From a virus: 25,449 nucleotides of DNA. The notes below the pieces were generated by a model. It saw only the letters and a list, made by a program, of their open reading frames with translations, was not told the origin of the DNA and searched no databases. The stretch covers positions 1 to 25,449 of IMG/VR virus record IMGVR_UViG_3300037076_000064. One strand, written 5' to 3'. Both the position numbers and the translations under genes were made by a program. This document shows positions 1 through 20,720 of the stretch, piece by piece (within the stretch, counting starts at the first letter, position 1; each line of letters opens with the position of its first letter).

Positions 1-324
1 GACCAGAGTGCTGCCACCAACACGGGCGACCGGAGTGCTGCCACCAACACTGGCTACCAGAGTGCTGCCACCAACACTGGCGACCAGAGTGCTGCCACCA
101 ACACGGGCGACCAGAGTGCTGCCACCAACACTGGCTACCAGAGTGCTGCCACCAACACTGGCTACCAGAGTGCTGCCACCAACACTGGCTACTGGAGTGC
201 TGCCACCAACACTGGCTACCAGAGTGCTGCCACCAACACTGGCGACCAGAGTGCTGCCACCAACACTGGCGACCAGAGTGCTGCCACCAACACTGGCGAC
301 CAGAGTGCTGCCACCAACACGGGC
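1..324 (+). repeat. Tandem array of a 27-bp coding repeat, 12 copies
   Basis: Twelve adjoining 27-bp units begin GACCAG, TACCAG or variants and end AACACTGGC or AACACGGGC. All stay in frame with the protein ending at 540. Differences are confined mainly to the first base (G/T), the CAG/CGG/TGG codon and one T/G near the end. The array runs off the window start, so the true copy number is unknown and may be collapsed by assembly. Confidence 0.95.
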
Positions 325-540
325 GACTGGAGTGCTGCCACAGTAGAGGGTAAAGATAGTATCGCTATAATTACCGGCTACGATAGTTCAGCAAGTGGCA
401 AAAAAGGTTGTTGGCTAGTCCTCACTGAACGAGACAACGATTACAAAATCTTAGACGTGAAAGCTGTAAAAGTTGATGGCAAAACTATCAAAGCAGGTGT
501 GTTCTACAAACTAGTCAATGGTGAGGTTGTCAAAGCATGA
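1..540 (+). CDS. Repeat protein with DUF7666-type C-terminus (5' truncated)
   Basis: The frame is open from base 1 to the TGA at 538-540, giving 179 residues with the N-terminus outside the window. The first 108 residues are twelve copies of a 9-residue unit, consensus D/Y-Q-S-A-A-T-N-T-G. A thirteenth unit (DWSAATVEG) leads into a globular C-terminus containing GKKGCWLVL and VKVDGKTIKAGVFYKL. From memory this tail is the pattern of the DUF7666 family, which often follows SAATNTG repeats in phage proteins. No function is known for the family. The repeat probably forms an elongated or solenoid-like stalk (inference). Only repeat positions 1 (D/Y) and 2 (Q/R/W) vary. The stop overlaps the next start as ATGA, so the two genes are probably translated together. 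Confidence 0.8.
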   Translation, partial: DQSAATNTGDRSAATNTGYQSAATNTGDQSAATNTGDQSAATNTGYQSAATNTGYQSAATNTGYWSAATNTGYQSAATNTGDQSAATNTGDQSAATNTGDQSAATNTGDWSAATVEGKDSIAIITGYDSSASGKKGCWLVLTERDNDYKILDVKAVKVDGKTIKAGVFYKLVNGEVVKA

Positions 541-893
541 CAGAAACCTTGGAGCCTAACCAAATCTTCGTTTTTGGTTCCAATAAAATGGGCAACCACT
601 ATAGCGGAGCCGCACAACAAGCCTACGACAAGTTCGGGGCACTCTGGGGCGCTGGATGGGGTCTGTACGGTCAATCCTACGCGTTCCCCACCCTCGGGTA
701 CAAGATGGAGCAACTACCTCTATCTAACCTAGAAACAGAGCGTGATAACCTCTACGACTGCTGTAACCGAAATAAGCACCTGACATTCTTGCTCACCAAA
801 GTGGGCTGTGGGATTGCCGGATACCCTGAGGAAGATATCAAACCATTGTTTACCAATGCACCGGATAATTTGATTAAGCCTAAGGGCTGGTAG
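537..893 (+). CDS. A1S_2505-family phage non-structural protein (macro-like)
   Basis: 118 residues. The N-terminus reads QIFVFGSNKMGNHYSGAAQQA, followed by FGALWGAGWGLYGQSYAFPT. The C-terminal half has LTFLLTKVGCGIAGY followed by EEDIKPLF. This layout (FGSN, GxGAA, GQSYAxPT, T-x-x-GCGxAGY) is what I know as the A1S_2505 phage non-structural family, which is distantly macro-domain-like. A nucleotide or ADP-ribose ligand is possible but unproven. The length suits a complete single-domain protein. The ATG lies inside the ATGA overlap with the repeat-protein gene, and the pair probably forms one transcription unit. Its stop codon abuts a boxA-like sequence. Confidence 0.8.
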   Translation: MTETLEPNQIFVFGSNKMGNHYSGAAQQAYDKFGALWGAGWGLYGQSYAFPTLGYKMEQLPLSNLETERDNLYDCCNRNKHLTFLLTKVGCGIAGYPEEDIKPLFTNAPDNLIKPKGW

Positions 894-909
894 CTCTTTA
901 ACAATCTGG
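893..909 (+). promoter_or_regulatory. boxA-like antitermination sequence
   Basis: The sequence GCTCTTTAACAATCTGG starts at the last base of the A1S_2505 stop codon. It contains GCTCTTTA, the core of the boxA element of bacterial rRNA leaders and lambdoid nut sites, bound as RNA by NusB/NusE. It is followed by two long-range stems, as in an antitermination leader. A chance match is possible because the core is short. Confidence 0.4.
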
Positions 910-1049
910 GTGTCAGCGTAAGTGGCGTTCACGAGCCTAGTTGCTCATTGAGTGGATTGCAGCAGCCCAGAACAAATTAGGGGATAACGTTGCTCTGTGG
1001 TCGGCTGAAATAATGTCGTGTAATCAAAAACGCGGAGCAACGCCCCTAA
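906..1049 (+). other. Structured non-coding segment with nested stems
   Basis: CTGGG (906-910) can pair with CCCAG (966-970). A much stronger structure follows. TTAGGGG (977-983) pairs with CCCCTAA (1043-1049), and inside it CGTTGCTC (988-995) pairs perfectly with GAGCAACG (1035-1042), with a 4-nt bulge on the 5' side and a 39-nt apical region. No convincing ORF covers this stretch. It is probably a leader or non-coding RNA domain between the upstream genes and the tRNA-like element. I cannot assign it to a known RNA family. Confidence 0.55.
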
Positions 1050-1140
1050 CATGTAAACCGGTGTAAAAAATAAGTAAGTTCTGTATCTGTTGAACATTAA
1101 AAATTATGTAAGTAATTGGAAAATGACATGTAAGTGGAGA

Positions 1141-1259
1141 GTTAGAAGATGGGAGTGAGTGGCGGAATAGGTAGACGCATGTTGCTGTGCAACGCTTAGT
1201 CAACACAGCTTCGTACCAAATGCAAGGCGCAAATCCTTGCCTTGCTCCCATCTTCTAGC
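1141..1259 (+). ncRNA. tRNA-like element (Leu-type D-arm) closed by a 19-bp helix
   Basis: Bases 1160-1178 (TGGCGGAATAGGTAGACGC) look exactly like the D-arm of a leucine tRNA. Bases 1222-1240 form a T-arm-like hairpin (GCAAGG/CCTTGC with a 7-nt loop CGCAAAT), but the usual TTC of the loop is CGC. The acceptor position is not 7 bp: bases 1141-1159 pair with 1241-1259 for 19 bp, counting three G-T wobbles. The anticodon region is irregular. GTTGC/GCAAC can form a 3-nt-loop hairpin (1181-1193), or TGTTG can pair with CAACA across a 16-nt loop. No trustworthy anticodon can be read, and no ordinary 3' CCA end is placed correctly. It may be a decayed tRNA-Leu, a split or interrupted tRNA, or a tRNA mimic. 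It sits 33 bp upstream of a GTG-start gene. Confidence 0.5.
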
Positions 1260-1292
1260 CCTCCAACCAATAACGTAATAAGGAGATATATT

Positions 1293-1556
1293 GTGAGCAA
1301 AATTGTAAAACGTGAAGATTTCACAGATATGGTCGAACTTTGGTTTACCGATGATGAAAAGATTGGCACATTCCAAATTATGCAGTGTGAAGAGCATGGT
1401 AATGTTTGGCATTTTACTGATAAGTCTGGTGCTGATAACTGTATCGACTGCATAAAGGATATGTGTGAACCTCATATTAAATATGAAATACCAGGGTTTG
1501 AGTTCAAGGATTTAGACGATAAACTATCTAAGCTCACAATTAGGAAGCAATCATGA
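1293..1556 (+). CDS. Hypothetical protein, 87 aa
   Basis: The start is set at GTG 1293, 7 nt after an AAGGAG ribosome-binding site (1280-1285). An upstream in-frame TTG would lie inside the tRNA-like helix and is unlikely. The protein (VSKIVKREDF...) is acidic and small, with four cysteines and a C-terminal stretch rich in charged residues. I do not recognise it. It opens a run of small genes joined by overlaps: its TGA overlaps the next ATG. Confidence 0.75.
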   Translation: MSKIVKREDFTDMVELWFTDDEKIGTFQIMQCEEHGNVWHFTDKSGADNCIDCIKDMCEPHIKYEIPGFEFKDLDDKLSKLTIRKQS

Positions 1557-1960
1557 CCTGTAGAGCTACACCCGAAAGCCCATGTTTATGTTCATGCCAC
1601 CGCATAGAAGATGAAGACAGTAATCCATTAAAAGGATGCGATAAGTGCCCAGTTGCCACCAAACACACCCAACCTGTAGGGGATATAAATGAGCAGCTTA
1701 GCCGACTGATTATTGAAAACCAAAGTCTTGACGGGGCTATAGATATATCAGACCAATCTTGCATGAAAGATGAAATATTAGTTCTCATCGCACAATCAAA
1801 CCTAGCTCTACTTGATAGGCTAGAGGAAGAACTCCCAATATCTGAGCGTATGGCATGGAGTGATGAAGATGGACTTGTGATGGAAACGGTTGTATTCCGC
1901 ACAAATATGAAAGCATGGCTTCAATCAGAACGAGCCTTAATAGAAAAGAGGATGATGTGA
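1553..1960 (+). CDS. Hypothetical protein with Cys-rich N-terminus, 135 aa
   Basis: The start overlaps the previous stop (ATGA) and has AGGAAG just upstream. The first 35 residues contain CLCSCH and GCDKCP, a spacing that could bind one zinc ion. The rest is acidic and probably helical (INEQLSRLIIENQSL, LLDRLEEELPISER). I do not recognise the family. It is translationally coupled to genes on both sides. Confidence 0.7.
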   Translation: MTCRATPESPCLCSCHRIEDEDSNPLKGCDKCPVATKHTQPVGDINEQLSRLIIENQSLDGAIDISDQSCMKDEILVLIAQSNLALLDRLEEELPISERMAWSDEDGLVMETVVFRTNMKAWLQSERALIEKRMM

Positions 1961-2178
1961 GCAAAAACAAGCAGATATATGAATTATGGAAATTGATTGA
2001 TGATATTGATACAGCCACCGATGCGTACAAGATAGATGCTGCTGGCTTTCAGAGATATACCACACGAAAAATTAAAGAGCGTTTCATTATTGTGGGCAAT
2101 AGGAAGGTAGAAAAACTTTATAACAAGTATTACCCCTCACAAACCACTAATACCACCACAAGAAACGAGCAATCATGA
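1957..2178 (+). CDS. Hypothetical protein, 73 aa
   Basis: The likely start is GTG 1957, overlapping the previous TGA as GTGA and preceded by AGAGG. The frame is also open upstream to an ATG at 1915, but that would overlap the previous gene by 46 nt. The product is lysine-rich and helical (NKQIYELWKLIDDIDTATDA) with a Thr/Asn-rich tail. Its family is unknown. The stop overlaps the next start. Confidence 0.65.
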   Translation: MSKNKQIYELWKLIDDIDTATDAYKIDAAGFQRYTTRKIKERFIIVGNRKVEKLYNKYYPSQTTNTTTRNEQS

Positions 2179-2465
2179 GCGATACGACTTTAGATACCAT
2201 ATTGGTTGACACGCTAAAAACAAATGGATTTGCAGACATTCTTGCGCACAATATCGCTGCTCAGTACGGTGAAAAACTGATGGACGAGTTTGGTAATCAG
2301 ATTACAAAAGCTCTGGGTAACTATGTAGAAAAGACGGTAGAGCAGTATGTCAAGGACTGGGAGCTAGATAGCAACATCAAGCGACGAGTTGGAGCTGTAT
2401 TTCGTACTATAGATAAAGTTGAACTACTAGAAGCATTAAAAGAAAAGGACTGGAGGGACTTATGA
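2175..2465 (+). CDS. Hypothetical protein, 96 aa
   Basis: This gene starts in an ATGA overlap. It encodes a mostly helical acidic protein (TILVDTLKTNGFADILAH, KTVEQYVKDWELDSNIKRR). I see no recognisable domain, signal peptide or membrane segment. It belongs to the coupled small-gene run that begins at 1293, and its TGA overlaps another ATG. Confidence 0.7.
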   Translation: MSDTTLDTILVDTLKTNGFADILAHNIAAQYGEKLMDEFGNQITKALGNYVEKTVEQYVKDWELDSNIKRRVGAVFRTIDKVELLEALKEKDWRDL

Positions 2466-2557
2466 CCCCACAATCTAAACCTACACCAGACACAATAAAT
2501 CTTGATAAATGGAAATGGTTGCGTGAAGTGAGTGGATTAGACGGTGACCGTACTTGA
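2462..2557 (+). CDS. Short hypothetical ORF, 31 aa
   Basis: It starts at an ATGA overlap like its neighbours and ends at TGA 2555-2557. The peptide contains LDKWKWLREVSGL. It overlaps a second short frame (2544-2663) that stays open to a TAG. It may be a real small protein or the 5' part of one gene split by a frameshift. Confidence 0.4.
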   Translation: MTPQSKPTPDTINLDKWKWLREVSGLDGDRT

Positions 2558-2663
2558 TAAGTTTGAGTATGAAGATGAGGGCTATATTATAACGCCCGTA
2601 ATAATTGAGTTTCGTGCCGAGCTTCGTAAGGCAATTGGGGAATGGGCTGGGATTAAGGACTAG
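2544..2663 (+). CDS. Short hypothetical ORF, 39 aa
   Basis: The frame is open from 2541 to the TAG at 2661-2663, with GTG 2544 as the only plausible start and no clear ribosome-binding site. The product (VLDKFEYEDEGYIITPVIIEF) looks protein-like and could be the continuation of the 2462 frame after a +1 shift. Confidence 0.4.
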   Translation: MTVLDKFEYEDEGYIITPVIIEFRAELRKAIGEWAGIKD

Positions 2664-2698
2664 ACCGCTAGCTTGTTCTAAATATAATGGAGACTATT

Positions 2699-2821
2699 AT
2701 GACTGAGAATATTAGTGAAATGTGGAAACTACTTCAAGCATTAAAAAGCAAAGAAGAGTTTAATGCACTAACGCTTGAAGAAAAACTAGAGGCTTTGAGA
2801 ATAGCTGCAATACAGAAGTAG
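2699..2821 (+). CDS. Small hypothetical protein, 40 aa
   Basis: The ATG at 2699 follows a GGAG (2689-2692) at a suitable distance, and the frame ends at TAG 2819-2821. The product is a charged helix-forming peptide (SEMWKLLQALKSKEEF). Its WKLL start resembles the ELWKLI of the protein at 1957, though the similarity is short. Function unknown. Confidence 0.55.
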   Translation: MTENISEMWKLLQALKSKEEFNALTLEEKLEALRIAAIQK

Positions 2822-2845
2822 CATCTATAATTTGCATCGTGTTTG

Positions 2846-2854
2846 TGATATAAT
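2846..2854 (+). promoter_or_regulatory. Extended -10 promoter (TGATATAAT)
   Basis: A perfect TATAAT preceded by TGn, the extended -10 form of sigma70 promoters, with no good -35. It lies just after the small-gene run and points to the stem-loop array and the packaging genes. Confidence 0.6.
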
Positions 2855-2873
2855 GTAAGCAAGTTCAACAGAT

Positions 2874-2901
2874 AAGGCGCTGCTATAATGTGGCGCCTTT
2901 T
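2874..2901 (+). terminator. Terminator-like hairpin with TTTT tail
   Basis: AAGGCGC (2874-2880) pairs with GCGCCTT (2893-2899), and the 3' arm runs into TTTT (2898-2901). It would end a transcript started at the promoter at 2846-2854 after only about 40 nt, or end the upstream small-gene operon. The 12-nt loop contains another promoter -10 box. Confidence 0.55.
2881..2889 (+). promoter_or_regulatory. Extended -10 promoter inside the hairpin loop (TGCTATAAT)
   Basis: TGCTATAATG is identical to the extended -10 boxes at 11104 and 20726. It occupies the loop of the terminator-like hairpin, so transcription would start near the 3' arm and escape the terminator. Confidence 0.55.
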
Positions 2902-2913
2902 CATATCTCTTTG

Positions 2914-3037
2914 AGGCTTTAACGCCTTACTCAATAGCCGTAGTTAACGGCTCGTACATCACCCATTATATTAGCGGATTATATCCGTTGAACTAGAGAC
3001 CACCAGCTTACATTACTTTTCTTCTGTAAGCGGTCTC
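2914..3037 (+). ncRNA. Array of four stem-loops in an untranslated region
   Basis: No gene covers 2822-3112. Four hairpins follow one another: AGGC/GCCT (2914-2927), AGCCGT/ACGGCT (2936-2952), AGCGGAT/ATCCGTT (2973-2989), and a compound helix with GAGACC (2996-3001) pairing with GGTCTC (3032-3037) around GCTTACA (3006-3012) pairing with TGTAAGC (3025-3031). The density of perfect stems suggests a folded leader or a separate small RNA transcribed from the promoters at 2846 or 2881. I do not recognise an RNA family. Confidence 0.5.
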
Positions 3038-3112
3038 AAAGAGCTATGAAACCCGTACTTTAATAATTTATATCCCTATCTGCAGCCAAGTTTAGTTTAG
3101 AGGAGTTTAGTT

Positions 3113-3427
3113 ATGCAAATACCAGTCGGAGCAACCAAAGAAAGTTTCGTCTTTAATGAGGTCCAAGCGAGCATTGCCTATGCGATTGTGTCACAGAATA
3201 GAAACCATGGGAACTACACCCTTGGCGTTCTACTTACAGCAGTTGAAGCAGCACTTGGTGACTCAAAGCAGTCAGAAGCGCTCAAGGCAATCGTTCGCAG
3301 AGAAATGTTCGCACTGATGGATAGAAACCAAGGTGAAATATACGAATCGGTCGATATGCAACGTCCTGGATTGTACCCGAAAGAAACCAGGGTCGATGGA
3401 CAAGACGGAAACGATTTACCAAATTAA
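3113..3427 (+). CDS. Hypothetical protein, 104 aa
   Basis: An AGAGGAG lies 7 nt before the ATG, a strong ribosome-binding site. The protein is soluble, with helical segments (EVQASIAYAIVSQ, LTAVEAALGDSKQSEALKAIV) and a polar C-terminus that is probably disordered. No known domain is recognised. It is the first gene after the stem-loop array and probably the first of the packaging operon. Confidence 0.7.
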   Translation: MQIPVGATKESFVFNEVQASIAYAIVSQNRNHGNYTLGVLLTAVEAALGDSKQSEALKAIVRREMFALMDRNQGEIYESVDMQRPGLYPKETRVDGQDGNDLPN

Positions 3428-3431
3428 ATAA

Positions 3432-3454
3432 ATAACCATCTTGGCTGTGGTTAT
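3432..3454 (+). other. Intergenic hairpin
   Basis: ATAACCA (3432-3438) pairs perfectly with TGGTTAT (3448-3454) over a 9-nt loop, directly after the stop of the upstream gene. There is no U-run, so it is not a standard terminator. It may stabilise the mRNA end or process the transcript. Confidence 0.4.
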
Positions 3455-3470
3455 GGGATATAGATTTCAA

Positions 3471-3506
3471 ATGAATACTTATAAACCTAATCAGAGGTAT
3501 AGATGA
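3471..3506 (+). CDS. Possible 11-residue leader peptide
   Basis: ATG 3471 opens a peptide MNTYKPNQRYR whose TGA overlaps the metallopeptidase ATG as ATGA. No clear ribosome-binding site precedes it, so it may be chance. Confidence 0.2.
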   Translation: MNTYKPNQRYR

Positions 3507-3865
3507 AAACTACCAACAAAGACTTTGCTTCATTTAAGGATTACTGTTTGTACTGGCAAAAAGAGTTAGGACTTAATGATTGGCATATTTATTTCAAGCA
3601 CACAAAGCTCAATAATTCATTCGCCGATTGTGATTGCAGCCCTAGCGGTCGTGGCGCGATGATACAGTTCAGCACTAGCTGGGAAGATAGAGAGATAAAC
3701 GATAAAGAGCTGCGTGAATGCGCCCTACATGAAGTTATGCACGTTGTTACAGCTGATTTCGCGAATGAAGCACGGTCTAGGTCCGCTGATGAATATACCC
3801 TTGAATCAGCTGAGCATTCAATCGTTACCAGAATGACAAACTATATTATGGCAAAGGAAAAGTAG
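3503..3865 (+). CDS. Putative zinc metallopeptidase (HExxH), 120 aa
   Basis: The segment ECALHEVMHVVTADF carries the HExxH zinc motif (H76, E77, H80). A downstream glutamate in LESAEHSIVTRM (near E104) could be the third ligand, as in gluzincin-type peptidases. The N-terminus (YWQKELGLNDWHIYFKH) and the short length resemble small SprT- or ImmA-like phage metallopeptidases. There is no signal peptide, so it should act in the cytoplasm or the capsid. It precedes the terminase genes and could process head proteins or disable a host factor, but nothing in the sequence decides this. AGAGG upstream supports the start. Confidence 0.65.
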   Translation: MKTTNKDFASFKDYCLYWQKELGLNDWHIYFKHTKLNNSFADCDCSPSGRGAMIQFSTSWEDREINDKELRECALHEVMHVVTADFANEARSRSADEYTLESAEHSIVTRMTNYIMAKEK

Positions 3866-4084
3866 ATGACGCCCCACTGTTACAAATGCGGCACAACCGA
3901 GAACCTAACCAAGCAGAAGATACGAAACGGTATTAGATCTTATCGCTGTACTGACTGCAACAGAATCCAAAGGCAAAAGACCATGATGAGCGACTTTGTT
4001 TACAAGTCTCCTGAATACCTAGAGTGGGAGAGAAAGTCTAACGAGAGTATTAAACGGATAACGGCGAGGTTCACTAATGCCTAA
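3866..4084 (+). CDS. Small zinc-ribbon protein, 72 aa
   Basis: The protein has CYKCG near the N-terminus and CTDC about 20 residues later, a CxxC/CxxC zinc ribbon (C5, C8, C28, C31). A basic, helical C-terminal half follows (EYLEWERKSNESIKRITARF). The start directly follows the metallopeptidase stop and has AAGGAA upstream. It resembles phage zinc-ribbon or transposase-like ribbon proteins and may bind nucleic acid. The stop overlaps the small terminase start. Confidence 0.65.
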   Translation: MTPHCYKCGTTENLTKQKIRNGIRSYRCTDCNRIQRQKTMMSDFVYKSPEYLEWERKSNESIKRITARFTNA

Positions 4085-4490
4085 AAACGTAGGCGGAAGG
4101 CCAACAAAGCTCACACCAGAGCTTATGGTGAAAGCTAATCAGTACCTAGCGAGCTGCACGGACAGTAGCGAATTAGTTGGAGATAACAGGCCTACAGTTA
4201 TATGGAAAGTTAAGCTCCCTACCATTGAGGGATTGGCTAATTACCTCGATGTAAGCAGAGATATTCTTTACGATTGGGAGAAAGATAATGAAGGGTTTTC
4301 TTACATCTTAACGCGTGTGCGTAACGAACAAGCCGAAAGATTGATAAATAACTCCTTAGCTGGAAACTACAATCCTGTCATTTCTAAACTGTTACTGAGC
4401 AAGCATGGCTACATTGAGAAGAGCGAGCAAGACCTTAATCATAGTGGTGAGGTTACGTTTACCAACGATTTACCGAGGCCTAAAAAATAG
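4077..4490 (+). CDS. terS: Terminase small subunit
   Basis: The N-terminus GGRPTKLTPELMVKANQYL is typical of small terminases. A helix-turn-helix follows (LPTIEGLANYLDVSRDILYDW, about residues 45-65). The region FSYILTRVRNEQAERLINNSLAGNYNP and the motif SKLLLSKHGY match the GP3-type DNA-packaging family. The subunit recognises the packaging site and recruits the large subunit. At 137 residues it is of normal length. It overlaps the zinc-ribbon gene by 8 nt and normally lies directly before the large subunit, but here an HNH gene separates the two. Confidence 0.88.
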   Translation: MPKNVGGRPTKLTPELMVKANQYLASCTDSSELVGDNRPTVIWKVKLPTIEGLANYLDVSRDILYDWEKDNEGFSYILTRVRNEQAERLINNSLAGNYNPVISKLLLSKHGYIEKSEQDLNHSGEVTFTNDLPRPKK

Positions 4491-4491
4491 T

Positions 4492-4593
4492 ATGACATAT
4501 GTTTGTTCGCCACTCGGGGGTATGCTGACCAATGTTGAGGTGCCAATTTTGCGAGCCTGGTACAACCTAATCACAGAAAAACATATTTTATAA
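4492..4593 (+). CDS. Doubtful 33-residue ORF between terS and the HNH gene
   Basis: The ORF starts next to the terS stop and ends at TAA 4591-4593, just before the HNH start, giving a peptide with LGGMLTNVEVPILRAWYNLI. No ribosome-binding site is visible. It may be a remnant carried in with the HNH gene. Confidence 0.25.
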   Translation: MTYVCSPLGGMLTNVEVPILRAWYNLITEKHIL

Positions 4594-4594
4594 T

Positions 4595-5077
4595 ATGATA
4601 AGAAAACAATGCATCGTTTGTAACAAAGATTTCAATACCTACCCATCAAGGGTGAAACTGGGTCGCGGTAAGTATTGCAGCCGAAATTGTAGCGATACAG
4701 TAACTCTTATTCGACCTGATAGACTTATCGGAAGCAACACACAATTCATTAAAGGCCAGACACCACACAATTACAAAGGGTGGCGTTTTACTAAGTCACG
4801 CGCCAATGGCCGCATTTACAAAGAGATATACATGCCTGAACATCCTAATGCTACAAAGTCAGGATATGTTAGGGAACATCGGTTAGTTATGGAAAAGGAA
4901 CTTGGTAGGCTTCTCGAAGCAGACGAAGTTGTAGACCATATTAGTCGTTTTGATACATTGAACAATTCCCCGTCCAACCTAAGAGTCATGAAAAAGGTCG
5001 AACATGACAGGATGAACGTAGCACTTAACATTCATAGGAGATGGTATGCCAACAACAATACGTGTGCCAGAGTATAG
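4595..5077 (+). CDS. HNH homing-type endonuclease
   Basis: 160 residues. An N-terminal zinc finger uses C6, C9, C28 and C32 (CIVC...CSRNC). The HNH_3 core is at about residues 92-132: REHRLVMEKELGR, then VDHI with H115, then LNNSPSNLRVM. This is the usual layout of free-standing phage HNH homing endonucleases. It lies between small and large terminase genes, a common site for such elements. Its last 32 nt overlap the large terminase start, and the terminase ribosome-binding site lies inside its coding sequence. The start has no clear ribosome-binding site. Its position just before a disrupted terminase P-loop codon run may be significant. Confidence 0.88.
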   Translation: MIRKQCIVCNKDFNTYPSRVKLGRGKYCSRNCSDTVTLIRPDRLIGSNTQFIKGQTPHNYKGWRFTKSRANGRIYKEIYMPEHPNATKSGYVREHRLVMEKELGRLLEADEVVDHISRFDTLNNSPSNLRVMKKVEHDRMNVALNIHRRWYANNNTCARV

Positions 5078-6398
5078 CCCGTCAATCCGTCAGACGGCTT
5101 TTCACACCACAATCGCTGATGAAAAGCTTTATGGCGGTGCGGCGGGCGGTTAAGGTGGCAAGACTGCTGCATTAGTTGCTGAGTCAATTACCCTAGCCCT
5201 AGAGTACCCAGGCATACCAGTAAACCTATTCCGTCGCACAATACCTGAGTTAAAAGCTACGATCATACCTGAGATACAGAAGCAAGCCGGGGCATACATT
5301 CGTGCCGGTCACATGGAGTGGAAGGGTCAAGACCGTATGTTCCAACTAACTAACGGTTCAACCATAAGCCTAAACTACTTAGACAACGATAATGATATCT
5401 ACCGCTACCAAGGTGCAGAGATGCCTATCATCGGCGTGGATGAGCTAACTCAGTTCCCTCAAGCATGGATAGAATACCTGCTTACCCGTAACCGTACCGC
5501 TAACCCTGACTGGCCTGTGATGTTCTTTGCAGGCACAAACCCTGGTGGAGTAGGCCACGGATGGGTTAAGACACGCTTCATTGACCCTGTGCCACCAGAG
5601 ACTATCAACACAGTTAAACTCGAAGAAGGCGAAACAGTTACTCGTGTATTTATCCCTGCTAAAGTAGATGACCACCCTATCAAGAAGTTCCGAGATGACT
5701 ACAAGCGTAAATTATCGGCAATTAGCGACCCACAACTTCGTAGAGCCTTGAGAGATGGTGATTGGGATGTATTTGCTGGTCAGGTGTTCAAAGAGTTTAG
5801 ACGAGACATACACGTTATTGACCCGATTACTATTCCTGCTCACTGGCAAAGATGGCGAGCTATGGACCATGGCAACCACAACTCGGTCGGTTGGTTTTCC
5901 CGTGACCCTAACCTAGAGCGCATCTACATGTACCGGGAATATCACATAGACGAGTATAAAAAGATTAGTGAGAAAGCTCAAACGATCAAGCAACTCGAAG
6001 CTGGCGAGAATATATCCTACGGCCTAGCCGACCCGTCTATATGGGCTTCAGGACAAGGCGACCATGCCACGGGGCGCTCTATCGCTGAGTTATATCAGGA
6101 TGAGGGTGTTACATGGATGCCAGCCAACAATGACCGTATGGCCGGGCTAAACAACGTACATGAGCATCTAGGCATTGCCAAAGACGGATTACCACGACTG
6201 CAATTCTTCTCTACATGCGTTAGCACAATTCGTACCTTGCCGAGCCTACCTTACGACAAGACAAAGGTTGATGACGTTGATACTAATGCCGATGACCACG
6301 ATTACGACATGCTGCGCTATGGGTTAATGGCGTTCAGTAAAGATGGTAAAGATGACTTCAAGCAGCAGGAAGACTTTAGTTATGAGTTTGGTATCTAA
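5046..6398 (+). CDS. terL: Terminase large subunit, with an in-frame TAA in the Walker A motif
   Basis: ATG 5046 follows AGGAG (5036-5040). The N-terminus MPTTIRVPEYSPSIRQTAFH leads to LYGGAAGG, then TAA (5151-5153), then GGKTAALVAE in the same frame, open to 6398. The rest is clearly a packaging ATPase-nuclease: Walker B IIGVDE (about residue 132), then an RNase H-like nuclease with acidic residues in RAMDHGNH, LADPSIW and DHDYDMLRY. Without the stop and one Gly codon the P-loop would read GGAAGGGKT, which is canonical. Translation restarting at ATG 5313 would give 361 residues lacking the P-loop, so could not pump DNA. Either a translational hop, a real mutation or a sequence error must explain the stop. 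The subunit normally docks on the portal. Confidence 0.9.
5148..5156 (+). promoter_or_regulatory. Candidate translational hop site GGT-TAA-GGT
   Basis: The stop codon is flanked by two identical glycine codons in the terminase frame. A peptidyl-tRNA-Gly leaving the first GGT and re-pairing with the second would skip 6 nt and give an exact Walker A motif. Matching take-off and landing codons with a stop next to the take-off site are the hallmark of T4 gene 60 bypassing. The role here is inferred. Confidence 0.45.
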
Positions 6399-11146: not shown

Positions 11147-11671
11147 ATGGCACTAATATTAGAAACCAAGAAACAGAAAAGTACTTATGCGGCAGTACAC
11201 ATGTGGATGCGTTACCATCATGGTAAACCTCAGAAATGTGAAAACTGCGAGACAACCGAGAAACGTATGTACCATTGGGCAAACGTCAGTGGTACATACA
11301 AAAGAGAGCGTGAAGATTGGTTACGATTATGCGTACCATGTCACAAAAGCAACGACATTAAAGCACTTGGCGGAAAAATAAAGGCTAGACCTAAAAAGGT
11401 TCAACCGACAAAGATATGCACTGAGTGTGGAAATGAGTTCTTTAAAAACCCCCATCTAAGTAGAAAACAGTGGGAAGCCGCTGAACTCTGTAGCTTAGAA
11501 TGTTCAATTAAACGTACTGGCAGGAAACTAAAAGGTACGAAACAGTCAGAACAAACCAAAGCTCTAAAGTCAAAACTACTTAAAGAGAGATGGGCGACAA
11601 ACGAACAATGGCGTGAACATGTTACGAAGAAGATGATAGGTAACCAATTTGCACGTAAAACTGAGAAGTAG
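11147..11671 (+). CDS. HNH-type endonuclease with NUMOD3-like tail
   Basis: 174 residues. A first zinc-bound HNH-like core spans about residues 31-70: C31/C34, HWANVSGTYKREREDWLRLC and CVPCHKSND. A second C4 zinc finger follows (C91, C94, C115, C119). The C-terminus GRKLKGTKQSEQTKALKSK resembles the NUMOD3 DNA-binding motif of homing endonucleases. It has its own extended -10 promoter and a strong 3' hairpin, so looks like an inserted mobile gene downstream of the capsid gene. The HNH core lacks a fully classic second histidine pattern, so activity is uncertain. Confidence 0.7.
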   Translation: MALILETKKQKSTYAAVHMWMRYHHGKPQKCENCETTEKRMYHWANVSGTYKREREDWLRLCVPCHKSNDIKALGGKIKARPKKVQPTKICTECGNEFFKNPHLSRKQWEAAELCSLECSIKRTGRKLKGTKQSEQTKALKSKLLKERWATNEQWREHVTKKMIGNQFARKTEK

Positions 11672-15920: not shown

Positions 15921-18900
15921 ATGGCTTCCTTCTGGAGTAAACTCAAAGATCAAATTATTCCTTGGGATGGTGGTAAATCGTGGAGCAATCAGAATGTTAA
16001 ACCACAACCTGCTCGCGCACCATCAGTTCAGGCAAGTTCGCAAAACGTCATAAAATCTAGCCCGATGCAGATAAGTGCAATCAGTAAACTTAGCACTCCG
16101 AGTATGAGAGTGCCAACATTCAACGCACCTAAAATAAATATGCCTACAATATCGAGCAATCCAATTGCAAGGGTGGCGAATACTCTACATAACGACATTG
16201 TTCAACCAATCAAGCGTGATGTAGTGGCTCCTGTTTCTCATGCCGTAGGTAATATCGTAACCGCTGGAGTAACCCCAGGTGGCGCAGCTAATCCTCTTGG
16301 CTTAGGTGTGCAACGCTCACTCATTGGAACCGCCCAAGCAGCATCAGGACTTTATGACCTTGCTTCTCCTGGTACAGGTACAAATAGATTTAGCCAATAC
16401 TTGAATAAGCAAGCACTCTCCACAGATAAACAAGGCGCTGCCTCAATTCACCCTAACTTGTACAAGGCGGGTCAGTTAGTTGGTGACTTGGCGACATTCA
16501 ACATGGCAGGAAGGGCAGCAAAAGCAGTCGGAGTAATCCCACGAGTATCGCGAGTAGTCGCGCCTGTTTCTAGGGTCATAGCGCCTGTCGAAAATGCAGT
16601 GGCACGAACTGTAGCACCTCTCGCCGAAAAAGGCTTTGGCGGGCGCGTAGTAGCTGGAGCAGCGAAGAATATCGCTAATCCTGCATACCAAGGTGCAAAC
16701 GCAGCATACACAGCCCTACAAGTAGGTAAAGATGCCTCTCGTGGCACAAAGATAACCCCTCAAAACGTCGCTATACAAAACACTATAGGTGGTGTGGGGT
16801 TCCCAGTTGCAGGTTCACTTGGTAAAGAAGTCGTCGCACCAGTCGTTAAAGCGGGTGAAAATGCCATAAGAAGTACCGGACTGATCGCGCCATCACGATT
16901 GAACCCTACTGAGGTTATGCACCTAGGTAACTTCATGGATGCTCGCGGAACAAGGGCAATGACAAACGATGTATATAACAAGGGTATCGCAGCAGCACAA
17001 AAAGCCGGTGTAGACACTAATAACGTTGCAGCCGTAGACCAACTTCTCGGCGCACATCGAACCTTTGAAACACAGAAAGCTCAACGCGCAGCCTCTATAC
17101 AAGGGTTGAAAACTCAAGCTAAAGCTATGCTTCCACAAAATGAACGTGGTTCAGCACCTCTTAATAGCCCACTTATGCCCTTGAATAAGATTGTTGCTAA
17201 AGGTGCAGCCAAGCAACCCGAAACAATACTGTTCAATGGTAAGCCTCACGAAGTTGTACAAACCATCAAATCAGGGAACGATACCAAGTATCAACTACGC
17301 GATAGCAAAGGCAATGAAATATGGACGAATCAGGCCGGACTTGACACTGCTCGTAAAACACCTAAAAACTCAACAGTTCCTCAAGACCTGGTGCAAAAAG
17401 ATGTATCAACTGCAAAACCCCAACAAGTACTAGACCAATCAGTACCGCAGCAACCGTTACCATCACAAGCCCCACTAGAAACCCCAAAAAATCTTTCAGG
17501 AAATGTCTCATCTGTCGATAATGTAACACCACTTGGAAAGAATGTCGAGCGCATCATAAACAACGGCGCGCAGGTAAAAGATAAATCCCTTAATGCTCGT
17601 CTTGCTAATCAGGATAAATACCCCCAGGGTGTAAAAGATATGCTCAGTGGTACTTATGTCGAGCAGACTAACGCACAAACTATTAAAGATGCTAAGGCAC
17701 TTATATACCATGACCCTCAAGCGGCAGAAATACGCGCACTTGCCCCGAAGAACGCCGTAGATGTACAGATAGGTGCTGAACTATTTACCAAGTACACATC
17801 AGAGGGGAACTTTGCTAAGGCTGTAGACTTCGTAAACGCGGCAGACTCTACCACTCATGGTCAGATGATTCAGATACTTTCACAGTACGATCGGACTACC
17901 CCACAGGGCGCAGTCAAGTATGCTCAAGCTGCAATCAAGAACTACAACAAGGTACACGCTAACTCACCACTTGAACTAGACACAAAGACCATCGAGGACA
18001 TCGTAAAACAAGCAGAAGCTATCCAAAAAATGCCACAAGGTAAAGAGAGAAATATAGCCTCTCAAACTCTGATGCAAACTGTAGACAAGTTGATACCGTC
18101 AACAAAAACTGATAAAGCTATTACTCTATGGAAAGCTGGACTTCTTACTTCCCCAAGAACCCATCTAAGAAACATTGTAGGGAACGCAGTCCACGGTGCA
18201 GCAGAACTAGCCAAAGACCCGATTGCTGCTGCTAACGATATGCTACTAAAGACAAAGACTGGCAAGCGTACCCTTACCGCAACAGCTCGCGGAACCATCA
18301 GTGGCGCAGGAGAGGGTCTATCTGTCGCCAAAACAATCATGCAAACAGGCTTCGACCCGTCAAATGATATATCTAAGTTCGATATTCATAAGGTGAACTG
18401 GGGTACTGGCCCAATGGGTAAAGCAGCAAAGGCGTACACCAACTTTGTATTTAATACGCTATCCGTCGAAGATAAAGTGTTCTACCACTCCTCATTTAGA
18501 CGCTCTATGTACGACCAAGCTGGAGCAGCCGCAATCAATGTCGGCAAACGTGGAGACAGAGCGTTCATACAGAACCTTGTAGACAACCCTACGGCTGACA
18601 TGCTCAAAAACGCGACTCAAGACGCGTCTGTTGCTGTATTCAAGGATAAGAACGCCCTATCGACTGCCGTACAAGGTTTCAAAAAAGGGCTTAAAAAAGG
18701 TGGTGCAGTAGGTAATGCTGCCGGCGAACTAACCATGCCGTTCACTGGTGTGCCATCAAGCATAGCAGGACAGATGCTTGCTTACTCACCTATAGGACTT
18801 GGTAAGGGTATGTTTCATGATGCCCGATTGCTTCGTGGTAAAGTAACAGCTAAAGATGTGCCAGCATTGCAGCGTAAGGCTTCCCAAGAAGTTGGCCGTG

Positions 18901-20720
18901 GTGTTGTCGGTTCAGGCATACTCGGACTTGGTGCTTACCTTACTTCCCAAGGTTTAATGACTGGTAATGCTAAAGACGCAGCCGAAGCTGACCAATGGAA
19001 ACTTGAGGGCAAACAAGCTAACTCTATCCTTATAGGTGGCAAGTGGCGCTCAATTAACTCGATAGGCCCAGAAGCTATGATTATGCTTGCCGGTTCGAAG
19101 GTTCAGAATGACCCTAACTCAGCTCTCGGTAACATAGGTAAGGACTTTACTAACCAGACATTCCTAGCAGGTGTACAAGCCCCATTAAACGCCATAAACG
19201 ACCCGGCACGGTACGCCGGTAGTTATGTACCAAATCAAATAGCCTCGCTCATACCTAACATCGTAAAAGATACCTCCAAGGCTTTTGACTCAACTGCGCG
19301 TGAAACAAAAGTTACTAAGAACATGCCAGCCACAACCTTGAACACACTCAAGAGTGGTATACCATTCTTACGCAATAACCTGTTGCCATCTCGTGATGTT
19401 CTAGGTAACCCAATCAAGCAGGAGCCAACAGGCGTAGGTGCATATATAGACCTGTTCAACTCGAAGACACCTATAAAAACACCAGTCGTGAATGAACTAT
19501 CTCGGTTGTTTAATGTTGGTTCAAGTGCTACTCCAAGCGCTCTCGGCCCAGATAACACTATCTATGGGAACAAAGTAAACCTTACCCCACAGCAATTGAA
19601 TACGCTCGAATCAACTGGTGGTCAACAAGTACGCAGCCAATTAGACACTCTAATTACAACTACAGACTACAAAGCTCTTGACGATTCAGGCAAGCAGAAA
19701 GCAATACAAGACCTAGTAACTAAACTTCAGACTGGTGCGAAGAAAGATCTATTTGTACAAGGTGGTCTAACGTCAAGTAATAAATATGCTACTTCTAAAG
19801 ATGCACCGAAAAACCCACTAGAACGTCTTGGGTTATATGGTAGTGCAATAATACACGACCCAAAGAACAACATCGCTAACGTCGCAAGAGGTATCTTCAC
19901 GACTGACCGCGCTAGGAAAATGACGGGCAATACTTTAATCCTTGAGAGAAACAACGGACTATCCACGATGGACGGTGGCAATACGAACGCTCAAGTAGAT
20001 CATAAAGTACCACTCTCACTCGGTGGCTCGAACGACAAAAGCAACATACAGTACCTAACTACTACCGACAACCAAAAGAAAGCACAGTATGAAGTCCAAC
20101 TAGGCAAGAGGCTTGCCAACAAAGAGATAGACAAAGCCGAAGCTGTTCGTTTAATGACTGAGTACAACAAGAAACTAACCCCTGTAAGCCCTGGGGTAGA
20201 CATCAGTAAAATAAACACGACATCACCACTTGATGCGACAACCTACAGCATAGTAAAAGACCTCTACGCGAAAGATAATAAAACCTATGAGAATATTACG
20301 AATCCCAAAGGTAACACTGTCCATCTTAACAGCGATGGCAAATGGGTTTCTACTGGGAAAACTGACCTTGCCAAAACAAAGGCAAAAGACACCATAACCG
20401 CTAAATATCCGAAAGATGTACAAGATTTCTATAACCTAACTAAAGCTGAACAGAGTGCCTACTTCGCTAAAGATAGCGCAACTGCTACAAAACTGTACAA
20501 CCAGGCGAAACAGATGGACGGTGAACTTGTCGCTCAGGGTGCTTCGAGTAAGTTCGGAGCGACTAAGAGTACAGCAAAGAGTTCAGGTACTTCAAGTAAG
20601 AAAACAGCTAGCGCCAAAAAAGCAACAAAATCAAAACTCACATTCAAACCAATAGCAACTTCAACAAACAGTGCCATGTTTGCACTTCTTAAATCCGCTA
20701 AGATAGGGAAAAAGTCGTGA
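15921..20720 (+). CDS. Giant internal virion / polyvalent-type protein with C-terminal HNH motif
   Basis: 1,599 residues, AAAGGAG before the ATG. The N-terminal 300 residues are Pro/Val/Ala-rich with amphipathic repeats (VSRVVAPVSRVIAPVENAVA). Residues about 1150-1195 (NNLLPSRDVLGNPI, VVNELSRLF) resemble the LPD38-type segment of large phage polyvalent proteins, from memory. Residues about 1340-1400 contain QVDHKVPLSLGGSNDKSNIQYL, an HNH nuclease core with the DH and N-x-x-x-L parts. The C-terminus is Ser/Lys/Thr-rich. Such proteins are packed in the head and injected with DNA, sometimes acting against host functions. No RNA-polymerase motifs were noticed. Confidence 0.65.
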   Translation: MASFWSKLKDQIIPWDGGKSWSNQNVKPQPARAPSVQASSQNVIKSSPMQISAISKLSTPSMRVPTFNAPKINMPTISSNPIARVANTLHNDIVQPIKRDVVAPVSHAVGNIVTAGVTPGGAANPLGLGVQRSLIGTAQAASGLYDLASPGTGTNRFSQYLNKQALSTDKQGAASIHPNLYKAGQLVGDLATFNMAGRAAKAVGVIPRVSRVVAPVSRVIAPVENAVARTVAPLAEKGFGGRVVAGAAKNIANPAYQGANAAYTALQVGKDASRGTKITPQNVAIQNTIGGVGFPVAGSLGKEVVAPVVKAGENAIRSTGLIAPSRLNPTEVMHLGNFMDARGTRAMTNDVYNKGIAAAQKAGVDTNNVAAVDQLLGAHRTFETQKAQRAASIQGLKTQAKAMLPQNERGSAPLNSPLMPLNKIVAKGAAKQPETILFNGKPHEVVQTIKSGNDTKYQLRDSKGNEIWTNQAGLDTARKTPKNSTVPQDLVQKDVSTAKPQQVLDQSVPQQPLPSQAPLETPKNLSGNVSSVDNVTPLGKNVERIINNGAQVKDKSLNARLANQDKYPQGVKDMLSGTYVEQTNAQTIKDAKALIYHDPQAAEIRALAPKNAVDVQIGAELFTKYTSEGNFAKAVDFVNAADSTTHGQMIQILSQYDRTTPQGAVKYAQAAIKNYNKVHANSPLELDTKTIEDIVKQAEAIQKMPQGKERNIASQTLMQTVDKLIPSTKTDKAITLWKAGLLTSPRTHLRNIVGNAVHGAAELAKDPIAAANDMLLKTKTGKRTLTATARGTISGAGEGLSVAKTIMQTGFDPSNDISKFDIHKVNWGTGPMGKAAKAYTNFVFNTLSVEDKVFYHSSFRRSMYDQAGAAAINVGKRGDRAFIQNLVDNPTADMLKNATQDASVAVFKDKNALSTAVQGFKKGLKKGGAVGNAAGELTMPFTGVPSSIAGQMLAYSPIGLGKGMFHDARLLRGKVTAKDVPALQRKASQEVGRGVVGSGILGLGAYLTSQGLMTGNAKDAAEADQWKLEGKQANSILIGGKWRSINSIGPEAMIMLAGSKVQNDPNSALGNIGKDFTNQTFLAGVQAPLNAINDPARYAGSYVPNQIASLIPNIVKDTSKAFDSTARETKVTKNMPATTLNTLKSGIPFLRNNLLPSRDVLGNPIKQEPTGVGAYIDLFNSKTPIKTPVVNELSRLFNVGSSATPSALGPDNTIYGNKVNLTPQQLNTLESTGGQQVRSQLDTLITTTDYKALDDSGKQKAIQDLVTKLQTGAKKDLFVQGGLTSSNKYATSKDAPKNPLERLGLYGSAIIHDPKNNIANVARGIFTTDRARKMTGNTLILERNNGLSTMDGGNTNAQVDHKVPLSLGGSNDKSNIQYLTTTDNQKKAQYEVQLGKRLANKEIDKAEAVRLMTEYNKKLTPVSPGVDISKINTTSPLDATTYSIVKDLYAKDNKTYENITNPKGNTVHLNSDGKWVSTGKTDLAKTKAKDTITAKYPKDVQDFYNLTKAEQSAYFAKDSATATKLYNQAKQMDGELVAQGASSKFGATKSTAKSSGTSSKKTASAKKATKSKLTFKPIATSTNSAMFALLKSAKIGKKS

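Follow-up and report, generated by a model that had tools for sequence, protein, structure and literature searches.

Introduction

Natural translational bypassing has very rarely been documented apart from bacteriophage T4 gene 60 and yeast mitochondria, and gene 60 is the only proven phage bypass. Gene 60 has a 50-nt gap, a take-off stem-loop and a nascent-peptide signal; its take-off and landing codons are matched glycine codons, a stop codon lies right after the take-off codon (PMC5009743), and the gene of an HNH homing endonuclease, mobA, lies upstream (PMC3014915). In synthetic stop-hops, which are reporters in E. coli, matched codons flank a stop and 9 nt yield one residue (Weiss et al. 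1987, as cited in PMC5009743). According to a 2016 review, no natural in-frame stop-hop was known (PMC5009743). For terminases, a putative bypass in the large-subunit gene (terL) of Streptomyces phage phiHau3 and of prophage StrepC.1 was put forward by Smith et al. 2013 (as cited in PMC5009743), and Atkins et al. 2016 described probable bypassing in the phiHau3 terminase beside KGWG and a UUA codon (PMC5009743); UUA (bldA) control has been proposed for this phage (cited in PMC5009743). Besides phiHau3, we found nothing on terminase and bypassing in the open-licence literature. The P-loop of TerL is also where terL inteins occur most often, and their nucleases have been shown experimentally to cut terL alleles that lack the intein (PMC5050341).

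The locus reported here lies in a viral stretch of 25,449 nt (IMG/VR record IMGVR_UViG_3300037076_000064), referred to as the window. An earlier note, made from the sequence alone, had claimed that terL of the window carries an in-frame stop in its P-loop, that a hop between the flanking GGT codons would repair the protein, and that the arrangement parallels T4 gene 60. The parallel held for the matched glycine codons, the stop and the upstream HNH gene; it did not hold for gap length and stem-loop, as only 3 nt separate the matched codons of the window and no take-off structure was detected. The upstream peptide is the TerL N-terminus. The design of the window is exactly that of the synthetic stop-hops. 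Similar to phiHau3, the window has a gap in the terL Walker A motif between glycine codons, and the P-loop is restored when the gap is skipped. However, phiHau3 combines a GGC take-off codon, a slow codon in the A site and a GGT landing codon in a 7-nt out-of-frame gap that opens with the sense codon UUA and is read as host-specific UUA control, whereas the window carries the in-frame stop TAA, belongs to another TerL family, gives no hint of a Streptomyces host, and has an HNH gene directly upstream.

Results

terL of the window is interrupted by a clean 6-nt insertion

Based on the sequence, terL starts at ATG 5046-5048, preceded by GGAGATGGT, and its frame reads MPTTIRVPEYSPSIRQTAFHTTIADEKLYGGAAGG, then TAA, then GGKTAAL, remaining open to 6398 (Table 1). 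The P-loop thus reads LYGGAAGG-TAA-GGKTAAL with an open frame on both sides of the stop. The take-off codon GGT (5148-5150) is followed by TAA (5151-5153) and GGT (5154-5156), and the next codons are GGC AAG ACT. The claim of an in-frame stop between identical GGT codons therefore held, with coordinates and open frame confirmed. The resumed segment matches PF03237 Terminase_6N (E=1.9e-11) as well as phrog_979 and phrog_2 (terminase large subunit), and the 414 codons 3' of the stop contain no further lesion.

Table 1. Features of the terminase region of the window
Feature	Positions	Strand	Remarks
terS, terminase small subunit	4077..4490	+	PF16677 GP3_package E=1.9e-22; phrog_606 terminase small subunit
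HNH endonuclease gene, 160 aa	4595..5077	+	between terS and terL; PF13392 HNH_3 E=2.6e-9
terL N-terminal coding segment	5046..5150	+	includes take-off codon GGT; encodes ...LYGGAAGG; aligns with intact TerLs
6-nt coding gap	5151..5156	+	stop TAA 5151-5153 and landing GGT 5154-5156
terL resumed coding segment	5157..6398	+	GKTAAL... to stop TAA 6396-6398; TerL ATPase and nuclease domains

The earlier note had proposed a search of metagenomes for relatives at this site. It was run, and it returned both intact close relatives and the same interruption in other TerLs. Six relatives (L002 and L004-L008; L numbers label individual loci) have TerL proteins 63-80% identical to that of the window, and none has the stop. 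In the alignment with them, the sole indel is a clean 6-nt insertion, TAAGGT. A separate UViG, IMGVR_3300037155_000049 (6366 bp, L014), is identical to window positions 1-6324 except for a single mismatch at position 11, and it carries the identical stop, which makes an error peculiar to the window contig improbable. This contig represents the same strain, possibly from the same study, and is not independent evolution. A tandem repeat at the contig start of the window (1-341, 27 bp × 12.6 copies) is shared by this contig.

The same stop insert recurs in distantly related TerLs

Viral contigs (2.9 million) were scanned with a degenerate GAAGG-stop-GGK pattern and then with a wider version. These scans returned 25 stretches, of which about 13 were noise outside terL, around the chance level estimated by hand. 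The Walker A motif of TerL is interrupted as in the window in L011, L012, L013/L015, L021/L034, L023, L025, L028 and L033, in addition to L014. A third scan for GGAAGGG-stop-GK added three TerLs (L097, L098 and L099). The stop-insert class thus comprises 12 distinct TerLs, the window and 11 others, with identical position and design. Their pairwise identity is mostly 20-45% and at most 63% (L097-L099 were left out of this comparison). TAA, TAG and TGA are all used. The flanking codons are GGT-GGC in six, GGT-GGT in five and GGA-GGA in one (GGA-TAA-GGA), and in 12 of 12 the pair can be read by one tRNA-Gly. In other words, the stop-hop criterion of matched one-tRNA codons directly flanking a stop is met in the window and throughout the set.

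In a control scan of the 2.9 million contigs for a plain nonsense codon in the same loop, only two matches were obtained, L053 and L054, both with TGA. The strict pattern gave one match over 257 Gb of cellular genomes, and it was not in terL. A search with PF03237 for a second terL in the stop-insert records yielded at most one match each, and no spare terL was seen.

Two side observations concern these loci. In L053 (946-974) and L054 (9070-9098), TGA replaces a Gly codon of the TerL P-loop and nearby frames cross further TGAs; judging from these neighbouring frames, the phages may read TGA as Gly. The TerL of L033 (2-2257, minus strand), the one with GGA-TAA-GGA, additionally contains a LAGLIDADG intein within the NPGGPGH motif, and its N-terminus bears an in-frame fused extension that resembles a zinc finger.

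HK97-type TerLs carry short gaps at the same motif

In phiHau3 (NC_018836), KGWG is the Walker A motif of an HK97-type TerL and reads KGWG(GGC) TTACTCC (GGT)KDP. We scanned for KGWG-gap-GKDP with gaps of up to 30 nt and unconstrained gap sequence. The scan returned 41 stretches, corresponding to about 37 distinct TerLs, phiHau3 among them, after duplicates and one non-terL match were dropped. Although 30 nt was permitted, all 37 gaps are 1-10 nt long. The first gap codon, which would occupy the A site, is most often TTA (16) or a stop (15); the rare codons AGA, AGG and CCA account for 5 and GAT for 1. TTA or a stop thus opens 31 of the 37 gaps, and the number of stops alone has a chance probability of P=4e-11. 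A hop from Gly to Gly would yield KGWGKDP in every case.

In 28 of the 37, the insert is not a multiple of three and the frame is broken, so neither readthrough nor ordinary decoding can join the two frames. The codon pairs are mismatched at the wobble base in 4 of 37. In actinophages, GGY is so frequent that GGY-GGY matching carries little weight as evidence. More generally, the scan patterns demanded a landing Gly codon, which means that matching at the GGN level is partly by construction and that inserts without a landing Gly were outside the scope. Gap length, A-site codon and frame are independent signals, free of the scan pattern. The A-site codons CCA, AGA and AGG (L083, L093, L085, L094 and L073) are rare in high-GC hosts, which suggests that any slow codon may serve.

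Four isolated, viable Streptomyces phages carry the Walker A gap, namely phiHau3, GreenWeasel, BroPlease and Triumph. All four are of the UUA type and not of the stop type. Yosif and phiScoe1 have a clean empty site. Additionally, phiHau3 and GreenWeasel share another insert of 10 nt, TCT-TTAACGG-TCC, immediately upstream of Walker B, and BroPlease does not have it. Counting these two phages and three contigs, short TTA inserts between matched Ser codons (TCY-TTA..-TCC) just upstream of the Walker B sequence VLNETHHW were observed at L055 (2880-2980), L100, L078, L095 and L088.

Tested pairs of interrupted genes show purifying selection past the gap

Four diverged pairs of TerLs that share a gap gave omega values 3' of the gap of 0.092 (453 codons), 0.103 (459 codons), 0.081 (118 codons) and 0.125 (470 codons, dS 0.8). 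Downstream of shared gaps, the genes are under strong purifying selection (omega 0.08-0.125) in the pairs where this could be tested. Furthermore, the gap sequence drifts between sister TerLs while the protein is kept: L078 has TTAT and L095 has TGACC at 93% TerL amino-acid identity, and L058 has TAATCA and L060 has TAACTA at 92%.

These data bear on the explanation that terL of this contig is merely inactivated by the stop, through a null allele, a dead virus or a sequence error. In its favor, there are no expression data, the window is a 25-kb metagenomic contig and not a cultured phage, and the close relatives (L002-L008) have no stop. Against it, the stop is present in a second contig, 11 other distinct TerLs share the design, and plain nonsense codons are nearly absent from the loop. 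The downstream codons are also free of other lesions, isolated phages live with equivalent gaps, and selection persists past shared gaps. The earlier note had named a null allele and a sequence error as the alternatives; both are now unlikely as a general explanation.

Another explanation is switching at the DNA level, in which the short GGT..GGT repeat would drop out and reappear in the population, leaving a subpopulation with an intact terL. The insert is indeed flanked by matched triplets, and near-identical phages can differ by one gap, as BroPlease does in the second gap of phiHau3. However, repeats of 3 nt are too short to slip frequently, and take-off and landing codons are in many cases not identical (GGT/GGC). 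Moreover, intact genomes would outgrow the others, and diverged pairs share gaps. We regard switching as very unlikely.

An HNH gene adjoins three of the interrupted terL genes

The HNH protein of the window scores 37 bits against HNH_3 (cut-off 24.8) and matches PHROG HNH families down to E=4e-18. Its ORF overlaps the start of terL by 32 nt, and its 3' end provides the region of the terL ribosome-binding site. Homologs with 54-70% identity occupy the same place upstream of terL in L011 and L025. Of the loci recovered with an alignment of these HNH proteins, only three adjoin terL (window, L011 and L025), and all three terL genes are interrupted; they span two unrelated TerL families. Within the window's own TerL family, the HNH gene is present at 2 of 2 interrupted and 0 of 6 intact terL genes (Fisher P=0.036). 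The intact loci were scored as lacking the gene on the basis of sequence and ORF lists, using the stretches before terL for L002 and L004-L007 (for L006, only around the P-loop) and the listed ORFs for L008, and the comparison is weak.

An endonuclease neighbor is clear at only 3 of the 12 stop inserts, and 8 of the 12 have no clear one. Upstream of terL in L013, there is a weak GIY-YIG candidate (E=0.007, below the cut-off). AlphaFold models of this candidate and of the window HNH protein reached a pLDDT of about 50, too low for a fold search. The link to an HNH gene drawn in the earlier note thus held for the window, L011 and L025.

Elsewhere in the window, positions 11147-11671, directly after the capsid gene, encode a 174-aa cysteine-rich protein with a GTKQSEQTKALKSK tail that resembles a second free-standing endonuclease and has no Pfam match. 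The protein encoded at positions 15921-20720 (1599 aa) is virion-like and contains an HNH-like motif, QVDHKVPLSLGGSNDKSNIQYL, in its interior.

Discussion

The position of the insert, the design of the interruption, its recurrence in unrelated TerLs, the coding integrity on both sides and, where testable, the selection are shown by the comparisons above. That the TAAGGT insert is a minimal ribosomal bypass element, a stop-hop, is the likely reading; it rests on comparative evidence, and bypass itself has not been demonstrated experimentally. The claim that a hop from GGT to GGT skips 6 nt and restores GGAAGGGKT is likewise strongly supported by comparison, without an experiment on the locus. 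The support consists of the 12 stop inserts, the roughly 37 further gaps, the purifying selection and the four isolated gap phages.

In the proposed mechanism, peptidyl-tRNA-Gly would sit on GGU 5148-5150 with the stop in the A site. It would then detach, the mRNA would slide by 6 nt, and the same tRNA would re-pair at GGU 5154-5156. Decoding would restart at GGC and give GGAAGGGKT, an exact canonical P-loop. Some ribosomes would terminate after 35 residues, and the resulting lower yield of TerL may be tolerable for a low-abundance motor protein.

Several other routes were considered and rejected. Reinitiation downstream would start at the first ATG, at 5313, and Walker A would be lost. Stop reassignment does not fit, as the genes of the window end in TAA (9), TAG (6) and TGA (2) and the stop-insert set uses three stops. 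For a suppressor tRNA encoded in the contig, no tRNA gene was found in the window or the loci. An intron remnant was also rejected, because the insert lacks a final G where one would be required and because the sequence differs between relatives. GGT|TAA resembles the start of the T4 td intron.

Ordinary stop-codon readthrough would produce a TerL with two extra P-loop residues (X-Gly). The frame is identical before and after the stop, and readthrough is a common phage strategy. However, it would turn the P-loop from GxxxxGK into Gx6GK, which should destroy ATP binding, and three different stops across the set leave no single suppressor. The absence of a tRNA gene from the window and loci and of stop reassignment from the window also speaks against it, as do the HK97-type gaps, most of which are out of frame. 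Readthrough is therefore very unlikely.

For the stop-hop, a search for stimulatory RNA structure around the stop inserts gave no common signal (z about 0 for the window; only L028 was strong, z=-6). Since no tRNA gene, reassignment or common RNA structure was found, the element seems to require no more than an A site that is slow or empty, together with a matched Gly codon close by, like the synthetic stop-hops. Against bypass, no peptide, reporter or ribosome-profiling data exist for any stop insert, and low efficiency is expected of synthetic stop-hops. To the extent that sequence comparison allows this inference, natural in-frame stop-hops and the terL Walker A motif as a recurrent bypass hot spot are new.

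Why the inserts exist is a separate and weaker inference. The TerL P-loop inteins share their target, the Walker A coding sequence of terL, with the inserts, whereas the inteins are spliced proteins of >100 residues and the inserts are 4-13 nt and encode no enzyme. An insert may persist by destroying the target of a homing endonuclease in the most conserved terL DNA, whether that enzyme is the adjacent HNH protein or belongs to a P-loop-homing intein, and matched Gly codons would keep the insert harmless at the protein level. Protection is plausible because 3 of 3 terL-adjoining HNH genes precede an interrupted terL and because P-loop DNA is a known intein endonuclease target. It remains an inference, as it was in the earlier note, because a clear endonuclease neighbor is missing at 8 of the 12 stop inserts; cleavage by the HNH protein is itself inferred.

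Alternatively, the same hop might serve regulation, with the slow or stop codon limiting or timing TerL synthesis. This possibility overlaps with the stop-hop reading and concerns the reason for the hop, not the hop. In its favor, actinophage gaps have TTA in the A site more often than any other codon (16/37), a second TTA gap is present in phiHau3 and GreenWeasel, and packaging is late and needs TerL in small amounts. In contrast, the sister phages L078 and L095 swap TTA for TGA, which speaks against a purely UUA-based reason, and outside Streptomyces stops or other rare codons serve equally. Moreover, both gap sites, Walker A and just before Walker B, are intein-favored sites of terL, which timing alone would not predict. 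We modestly favor protection from homing nucleases over regulation.

A bolder reading is that the Walker A coding DNA is a battlefield in which homing nucleases cut and many lineages escape through hopped inserts of 4-13 nt. The in-frame members, the window among them, would then be stop-hops that occur in nature, and bypassing over short distances would be far more widespread than T4 gene 60 suggests. We offer this reading tentatively, as the balance of evidence falls slightly short of it.

Collectively, the survey yields about 50 compact bypass candidates in one essential gene and one codon neighborhood, and four isolated phages carry the UUA type. Short-distance bypassing thereby becomes testable with ordinary reporters and phage proteomics. 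Interrupted terL genes are wrongly annotated as split or dead genes. Should the inserts also block homing nucleases, conflict between parasite and host can select changes that only the ribosome undoes.
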